Source of the DNA: Hyphomicrobiales bacterium
GTDB lineage: Bacteria; Pseudomonadota; Alphaproteobacteria; Rhizobiales; Xanthobacteraceae
Length of the DNA: 51,220 nt
Assembly: GCA_017305555.1 (NCBI GenBank)
Contig: JAFKKM010000041.1
Location: 1 to 51,220 of the forward strand
Reading direction: 5' to 3'
Shown here: positions 33,609-34,683 of the stretch, piece after piece
Layout of the letters: each line of letters begins with the position of its first letter
Numbering within the stretch: position 1 is the first letter of the stretch
Translations under genes and position numbers: made by a program
The notes under the pieces: generated by a model
What the model was told of the DNA's origin: nothing
Databases searched by the model: none
Seen by the model: the letters and a program-made list of their open reading frames with translations, nothing else

Positions 33609-34529
33609 TCAATATTCGCCATCCGCCGCGGAACGTTGCGATTTGTTTGCGGGAGCTTTGGCGACCTGCGCCAGATAGGCGATGATGTCGCGGCGCGACG
33701 GGGCATCGAGCACGCGCACCGGCATCCGTACGCCAGGCACGAAATCCTTGGGGCTGGCCAGCCATCGATCCAGATTGCCCTCGGACCATTTGAGGTGAGC
33801 GTTCTGAAGCGCCGGCGAATAATGATATCCGGCGACTGAGCCCGCCTCGCGCCCGACCACACCGGACAGCTTCGGTCCGGTCCTGTTGCTGTCCATGGCG
33901 TGACAGGCGTTGCAGCGCTCGGCGAAAAGCTGTTTGCCATGGGCGGGATCGGGCGCCGCATCGTCGCGGAAGCGCGAAAGATTCTTGCTCTGCGACGGAT
34001 CGACCGAACGCAGCAACGTATAGCTGAGCGTGATCGTGTCGACGTGCTGGTTATCGGGGTCCTTCACGAACTCTGGATCGACGTAGAACACCACCGGCAT
34101 CTCGACCTTCTGATGCGGATCAAGCCGCTCCTCATTGAAGCAGAAGCACTGGATCTTATTGAAGTAGAGACCGCTCGTTGCCGGCGTGACGTTGAACGTC
34201 GCGTGCGCGACGATCGATTTGTTCGAAAGATTTTCCGCAGTGAAGTACACGAGCTTCTGTTCGCCGAGATGCACCGAGACGGAGCGCTGCTCCGGCTCGA
34301 ACCGCCACGGCAGATCCGGTGCCACATTAGTGTCGAACGCGACCGTCACCGTCTTGTCGGAGATCGTCGCGGAATCCGTCAGCACCCGCTGCGTCGTCCC
34401 GCCATAGCCGGTGGCGCCGCAGAAAATGCGGTAGAGTTGCGGCGCATAGGCAACCAGACCGAACATGAAGCCGATCACCGCGAAGATGGGCAACAGGACG
34501 TTGAGGTTTTTCCGGTGGCGTGGAGGCAT
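33609..34529 (-). CDS. fusion of Cox11/CtaG copper chaperone with a c-type cytochrome
   Basis: A 306-residue, two-domain membrane-anchored periplasmic protein. Residues 1-185: Cox11/CtaG, with one transmembrane helix (about 10-30), C37 in YRIFCGATGYGG and the copper motif CFCF (128-131). Cox11 delivers copper to the CuB site of cytochrome c oxidase. Residues 195-290: class I cytochrome c with heme motif CNACH (206-210), GPKLSGVVGREAG, and axial M269 in VPGVRMPV, much like mitochondrial cytochrome c. Plain Cox11 ends near residue 190, so the heme domain is an addition; both would be periplasmic, as heme attachment requires. The start at 34529 has GGGA suitably placed; 34535 is an alternative. 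No cox genes are adjacent. Confidence 0.9.
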   Translation of the reverse strand: MPPRHRKNLNVLLPIFAVIGFMFGLVAYAPQLYRIFCGATGYGGTTQRVLTDSATISDKTVTVAFDTNVAPDLPWRFEPEQRSVSVHLGEQKLVYFTAENLSNKSIVAHATFNVTPATSGLYFNKIQCFCFNEERLDPHQKVEMPVVFYVDPEFVKDPDNQHVDTITLSYTLLRSVDPSQSKNLSRFRDDAAPDPAHGKQLFAERCNACHAMDSNRTGPKLSGVVGREAGSVAGYHYSPALQNAHLKWSEGNLDRWLASPKDFVPGVRMPVRVLDAPSRRDIIAYLAQVAKAPANKSQRSAADGEY

Positions 34530-34683
34530 CGCCATTCCCTGCGCTGATTGCTCAGCAATTGCGCCGGGTCTAGATCGATTGAGCGCGGTCGTCCACCGGC
34601 AATGCCGGGCAAAATGCACCAGACGCGCGTTATTCGCCGGCATTCCACCGCGCTTGACGAAGTTGTGATCGTGTTTTCATCGG

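Follow-up and report, generated by a model that had tools for sequence, protein, structure and literature searches.

A Cox11/CtaG-type copper chaperone joined to a class I cytochrome c in one open reading frame of a Hyphomicrobiales bacterium

Ordinary Cox11/CtaG (PF04442; 1SO9/1SP0) shares the Cox11 head, the CFCF motif and the third cysteine with the fusion protein described here, but it ends after the head. Class I cytochromes c, including cyt cy and cytochrome cH (1QN2), share the CXXCH motif, the distal Met and the fold with the other half of the fusion; cytochromes of the class I and cyt cy kind are free or carried on their own anchor, unlike that half. Sco, a thioredoxin-fold CuA chaperone, is unlike the Cox11 half, and the chaperone fold of Archaeoglobus fulgidus CopZ is unrelated to Cox11. 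Sco-cytochrome c fusions, which combine an oxidase copper chaperone with a cytochrome c, were reportedly described by Banci et al. in 2011 (J Biol Inorg Chem 16:391). In A. fulgidus CopZ, a Cu chaperone is fused to an iron-sulfur redox domain that reduces Cu(II) (PMC7558416); this protein differs from the Cox11 fusion in that it is cytosolic and contains iron-sulfur. The caa3-type COX2-cytochrome c fusion joins a cytochrome c to an oxidase-related copper protein (PMC9145763, PMC6696091), but COX2 is the CuA subunit and no assembly factor, and the Cox11 fusion is without a COX2 domain.

Cox11, which binds Cu(I) as a dimer, is required for CuB (PMC7558416, PMC6696091, PMC9232578). ctaG is essential for the aa3 activity of Caulobacter and coxG for that of Bradyrhizobium japonicum; in Caulobacter vibrioides without ctaG, this activity is lost both on NADI plates and in an oxidase assay (PMC12617631). 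The copper route to CuB, a buried site, is poorly understood according to PMC6696091 and PMC9232578. No mention of a Cox11-cytochrome c fusion was found in the excerpts of the open-access literature searched (including PMC4013037, PMC6431628, PMC6769254, PMC3817396 and PMC3994876). A natural CuB chaperone with its own redox cofactor would make the role of electrons in the CuB step directly testable, with the visible heme as a reporter.

The window, a stretch of 51,220 nucleotides from contig JAFKKM010000041.1 of a Hyphomicrobiales bacterium (GCA_017305555.1), contained the fusion gene and the features listed in Table 1.

Table 1. Coordinates of the fusion gene and its parts in the window.
Feature	Position	Strand	Remarks
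Cox11-cytochrome c fusion gene	33609..34529	-	306 aa + stop; ATG at 34529
Hydrophobic N-terminal segment, residues 10-31	34437..34502	-	Basic N-terminus (RHRKN) ahead; read from sequence
C37, third conserved Cox11 cysteine, just above membrane	34419..34421	-	Alignment
CtaG_Cox11 domain (PF04442), residues 32-172	34014..34436	-	Pfam; 1so9/1sp0 by sequence, 1so9 by fold
CFCF copper-binding motif, residues 128-131	34137..34148	-	Sequence; C128 and C130 kept in relatives
Junction, residues 175-195, usually with (N/D)L(S/A)RF	33945..34007	-	Alignment of fusions
Class I (mitochondrial-type) cytochrome c domain (PF00034), residues 196-289	33663..33944	-	Pfam; sequence and fold matches
CNACH heme attachment motif, residues 206-210	33900..33914	-	Sequence; C206, C209 and H210 kept in relatives
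M269, predicted axial heme ligand	33723..33725	-	By alignment

The preliminary description of this locus had read a single open frame joining Cox11 and cytochrome c, and this was confirmed: the 306 residues contained no stop between the domains, and both domains scored above their Pfam cut-offs, with 186.5 bits against 25 for CtaG_Cox11 and 30.7 bits against 21.3 for Cytochrom_C. C37, CFCF (128-131) and CNACH (206-210) also lay where it had placed them. In addition to its profile score, the Cox11 half contained the CFCF motif and the membrane-proximal third cysteine, and the protein exceeded the cut-off of the Cox11 equivalog PRK05089 (201.6 against 162, NCBIfam). The cytochrome half had the CXXCH motif, an axial Met (by alignment), and the profile and fold of class I cytochrome c, and all NCBIfam cytochrome models scored below their own cut-offs on the fusion protein. 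With Pfam, we found neither the SCO1-SenC domain of a Sco-cytochrome c fusion nor the COX2 domain with CuA motif of a caa3 COX2-cytochrome c fusion (E up to 0.01), and Caa3_CtaG (PF09678) gave no match in the fusion protein. Residues 10-31 likely form a single membrane anchor, with the remainder of the protein predicted to be periplasmic, and a helix spanned residues 6-40 in the structural model. In-frame alternative starts were present upstream of the start in Table 1, the nearest being an ATG at 34535.

In profile comparisons with solved chains, residues 31-174 matched 1so9/1sp0 and residues from about 192 to 296 matched cytochromes c, and the best cytochrome match by sequence was a solved construct containing cyt cy. 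Each of the 60 solved chains listed matched only one half of the fusion. An earlier AlphaFold model built from 28 rows was poor (mean pLDDT of 69.9), and the model built from 47 rows had a mean pLDDT of 80.5 and a pTM of 0.73, with an ordered junction (mean pLDDT of 85 for residues 181-190 and 89 for residues 191-200). Foldseek returned 1so9 as the best match to this model and cytochromes c next; the TM-score between 1qn2 and the fusion model was 0.83 by target length.

A scan of genome contigs revealed 53 loci with a fused or plain relative. The fusion alignment, compiled from contig-scan and genome loci, comprised 28 distinct fusions including that of the window; 27 of these were complete, and one (L085) started at a contig end with its N-terminus missing. 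C37, C128, C130, C206, C209, H210 and M269, the last also named in the preliminary description, were invariant in all 28 fusions, and C37 was invariant across the 47-row alignment with plain Cox11 as well. The stretch from R174 to R205 inclusive measured 32 residues in 27 of the 28 fusions and 31 in L023. Mean pairwise identity among the fusions was 75% in the Cox11 half and 66% in the cytochrome half. In ten hand-picked pairs of fusions, dN/dS was 0.046-0.126 for the Cox11 domain, 0.040-0.216 for the cytochrome domain, 0-0.42 for the N-terminal segment and 0-0.65 for the 12-residue linker; in the tail, it was 0.16-0.91 in the nine computable pairs and exceeded that of the cytochrome in all nine. 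Both fusion domains are under purifying selection. A frameshift or an event in a single strain, which the preliminary description had allowed for, was not what we observed: with 28 distinct fusions, invariant ligands and purifying selection on both domains, the fusion is no recent single-strain accident, and an assembly error is countered by the independent occurrence of the fusion in relatives, some of them isolates and one a named plasmid record. That relatives keep the joined form suggests that copper delivery and electron transfer may be coupled within one molecule. Decaying copies were also seen, with a stop in the junction in L018 (B. cenepequi) and split frames in L027 (N. winogradskyi) and G523 (L030/L107); L088 was a truncated extra copy in G083. 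The record titles Angelobacter (L006), Frankia (L017) and Rhodospirillales (L030) look misassigned, as these sequences were near the Bradyrhizobium type.

Of the 54 rows in the Cox11 tree, 27 fused ones grouped with the Cox11 piece of L018 in a clade (98/92) that was sister to a group of L023, itself fused, and two plain Acetobacteraceae/Rhodospirillales rows. Same-family plain operon Cox11, including that of the host, lay in a distant clade, apart from the fused rows. In the cytochrome tree (40 rows), from which the L025 and L027 pieces belonging to fusion frames were left out, the 28 fused halves and the L018 and L107 pieces grouped together (97/96) against ten other free cytochromes, a small sample beside which a nearer free cytochrome may exist. 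Since the cytochrome halves formed one clade, a single fusion event is likely. L023 grouped with plain Acetobacteraceae-type Cox11 in the Cox11 tree and lay inside the fused clade, on a long branch, in the cytochrome tree; given these conflicting positions, we prefer one origin with losses as the probable history over two fusions. Additionally, stand-alone Acetobacteraceae-type Cox11 in L028, L029 and L023 was followed by the same kind of small gene, and the cytochrome was present in L023 only.

In the sampled genomes, the fusion occurs patchily and largely within this family. An open fusion was present in at least 17 of 198 family genomes, which were sampled out of a larger group and in which fusions were counted among the matches listed, best first; the copy of G192 was cut by a contig end, and that of G102 was broken. 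At least five of the 47 genera in this sample carried the fusion, which was open in at least four of the eight genomes of the host's own genus, six of nine in g20 in addition to the broken one, five of 11 in g3, one of 10 in g25 and one of two in g6. In a scan of 385 genomes of the class (E up to 1e-50), at least 249 had a match; among the matches listed, a whole fusion was found only in the host genome and a broken piece in G523. Judged by record title, two fusions of the contig scan, L022 and L023, were from outside the family.

The preliminary description had noted that no oxidase genes adjoin the fusion, and we agree: no COX1 was found on its contig, and the neighbors identified with Pfam were an alcohol dehydrogenase, an acyl-CoA dehydrogenase, a SnoaL-like protein and an amidase. 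Among the nearest genes listed for 25 fusion loci (L089 repeats L013), neither a copper-transport gene nor an oxidase gene was recognized by eye, and no conserved operon was seen around the fusion, as the contexts varied; gene names without Pfam or annotation support were assigned by eye from sequence. An NnrS-like gene was near the fusion in L011, L012 and L087. In L021 (7986-8876; the same locus as L081), the fusion lay within a urease cluster, flanked by a ureF-like and a ureG-like gene, and L020 had a ureE-like gene upstream of it, all named by sequence.

On the predicted conjugative plasmid pBAL398.3 of Rhodopseudomonas sp. BAL398 (NZ_CP133114.1; record listed as linear), the gene order was multicopper oxidase, c-type cytochrome, hypothetical, DUF411, DsbE, TlpA, hypothetical, YCF48, c-type cytochrome, SCO, PCuAC, fusion, DsbA and CcdA, followed by other genes and Cus-type efflux, and the annotated start of the fusion overlapped PCuAC by 4 bases. 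Because this record, the one annotated entry of a fusion consulted, names the protein only 'cytochrome c oxidase assembly protein', the heme half is easily overlooked. The metagenome contig L022 had the gene order of the pBAL398.3 copper cluster, and Pfam matches there covered multicopper oxidase, cytochrome c, DUF411, redoxin, SCO, PCuAC, ScsC-like DsbA and DsbD_TM. In N. winogradskyi (L027), the cluster was decayed: cytochromes, DUF411, DsbE, YCF48 and PCuAC were matched over most of their length, but Sco was matched in only 67 of its 212 residues and the oxidase in only the final 24, TlpA and the fusion were fragmented, and neither DsbA nor CcdA gave a match. An intact copper cluster in L027 was therefore rejected. 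A copper role of the fusion is supported by the two intact clusters (pBAL398.3 and L022) and the decayed one, in all of which the fusion comes after Sco and PCuAC. In L121 (7323-7761), the second c-type cytochrome of the plasmid cluster matched its L022 relative in two frames and may be broken or misread. Three further plasmids, of Nitratireductor, Aquibium and Jiella (L120, L122 and L123), encoded a plain Cox11 of 216-218 aa without CXXCH adjoining PCuAC, with no oxidase genes listed within the stretches shown; a mobile accessory Cox11 may be more widespread.

We searched the host assembly (5.17 Mb, 182 contigs) for the second, plain Cox11 that the preliminary description had proposed to look for, and found it on contig C60: a 220-aa protein encoded in an aa3 operon, with ctaB and ctaE on either side. 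With this ordinary Cox11 present, the fusion is not needed in the host as the sole CuB factor and is an accessory second copy of Cox11. The host had four COX1 genes above the cut-off and one sub-threshold match; by sequence and neighbors, read by eye, these were one aa3, two cbb3-like and one other oxidase. No member of Caa3_CtaG was found in the host genome, which encodes CcmE, a part of cytochrome c maturation. Two other host loci were observed: a 722-aa frame on contig C81 (L102, 1030-3195) with an internal cytochrome c followed by an apparent copper nitrite reductase part (by eye), and a copper cluster at the end of contig C53 (L118), meeting the contig end, with CopC-, CopD- and Cus-like genes (by eye) and a cluster-type cytochrome c.

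No other Cox11 was found in four of the 18 fusion genomes searched, namely G176, G150, G115 and G146 (completeness of 89%, 99%, 88% and 95%, respectively), and Caa3_CtaG was not found in the first three, while G146 had one. The CuA-motif oxidases of G150, G176 and G115 carried YSHPAVY in COX1 (G176 C90 and G115 C49 left out), which we take to be A2-like. The A1 aa3 type is the oxidase kind normally tied to Cox11; with A2-like oxidases in these three genomes, the target of the fusion may differ there, and the idea that the fusion is a general replacement of plain Cox11 is weak. In G146, COX1 carried GHPEVY, and the A1 aa3 operon (L076, G146:C179) was without ctaG, with 60 bases between the CoxF-like gene and ctaE, the place occupied by ctaG in L093 and L100. 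Replacement of a decayed operon ctaG by the fusion in G144 was rejected, as the gap there was a run of N in the assembly. A tie to a second A1 aa3 oxidase was unsupported, as the host shows only one and the fusion-free G112 and G072 have two. In G119, COX1 and plain Cox11 were each matched four times with identical scores (C4, C40, C42 and C44), which reflects a repeated aa3 operon or an assembly effect.

Ten of the 198 family genomes had weak matches alone, as if without Cox11, with profile confirmation for G161 alone. Three g44 genomes (100% complete) had one COX1 each, which at about 390 bits scored in the range of the host cbb3-like one (409.7). G036, G109 and G117 (completeness of 89, 84 and 93%; 480-830 contigs) had an aa3-like COX1, two of these less than 1.8 kb from a contig end. 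G081 and G161 had one COX1 of 395 and 399 bits, respectively, and pieces, and G042 and G126 had none.

The best explanation, which we offer tentatively and at somewhat below even confidence, is that the fusion is a Cox11-type Cu(I) chaperone, anchored in the membrane and facing the periplasm, with a one-electron relay of its own. This reading draws chiefly on the conserved anatomy of the protein, and also on the selection on both domains, the two intact copper clusters, the CopZ precedent, the four genomes in which no other Cox11 was found and the CcmE of the host. The Cox11 part would take copper, from PCuAC/Sco-type carriers where these are encoded alongside, and would deliver this copper to CuB in a heme-copper oxidase. 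Through the tethered heme, the respiratory chain would supply the copper with electrons one at a time; copper delivered as Cu(II) would thus be loaded as Cu(I) and maintained in that state for insertion. In the host, such an accessory Cox11 is probably useful when periplasmic copper is oxidized, scarce or in excess. We infer the electron-transfer step, which, like docking on the oxidase, had been put forward in the preliminary description, as we do everything beyond the finding that both domains are intact and conserved together. By analogy with the precedent of A. fulgidus CopZ, it appears more plausible that the heme reduces or redox-gates the copper itself than that it reduces thiols. In human cells without COX19 or PET191, COX11 is reduced and copper-free (PMC9232578), so Cox11 is not always short of reducing power. 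The plain Cox11 in the host, the A2-like oxidases, the Caa3_CtaG of G146, the completeness of only 88-95% in three of the four genomes with the fusion alone, the 25 loci without recognized copper neighbors and the decaying copies count against a relay. Possible but doubtful is a bolder form, a self-reducing metallochaperone in which heme electrons would go straight to the Cox11 copper, the respiratory chain, through its redox state, would gate CuB insertion, and the module would spread with mobile copper clusters and be able to replace ordinary Cox11.

The main rival, docking, we consider unlikely by itself, although relay and docking can both be true: the cytochrome c domain would bind the cytochrome c site of the oxidase (or bc1) and place the Cox11 head over the CuB entry, with electron transfer incidental. 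In line with this, the domain is of the mitochondrial/cyt cy kind, the junction length is nearly fixed, the presumed places of horse K13, K27 and K79 are basic in 24, 21 and 26 of the 28 fusions, and charges in the eight rows checked were positive for the cytochrome half (+1 to +7) and negative for the Cox11 head (-4 to -7); the presumed K72 and K73 places, however, are less kept, with K or R in 18 and 20 of the 28. Decidedly unlikely, in our view, is a copper-stress accessory that would metallate or protect oxidases or another periplasmic cuproenzyme at high copper and travel as copper-resistance cargo, the chromosomal stand-alone copies being its descendants. The copper cluster placed before Cus-type efflux genes on a predicted conjugative plasmid, its shared order in L022 and decayed version in N. 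winogradskyi, the patchy spread (at least 17 of 198 genomes, 5 of 47 genera) and the plain Cox11 with PCuAC on three other plasmids, with no oxidase genes listed in the stretches shown, agree with such cargo, but no copper-transport gene was recognized at the 25 fusion loci (one repeated) or at the host locus.

A membrane-tethered electron carrier like cyt cy, with the Cox11 part as anchor and spacer only, would fit the solved construct containing cyt cy as the best cytochrome match by sequence; it is highly improbable, as all 28 fusions retain each of the three copper-binding cysteines and mean pairwise identity is higher in the Cox11 half than in the cytochrome half (75% against 66%). Chance read-through or an assembly artefact joining two genes might be read from the junction stop in B. 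cenepequi (L018) and the broken frames of N. winogradskyi (L027) and L030/L107, but its probability is negligible, and a frameshift or assembly artefact was rejected on the 28 open, distinct fusions, which include several isolates and a plasmid record.
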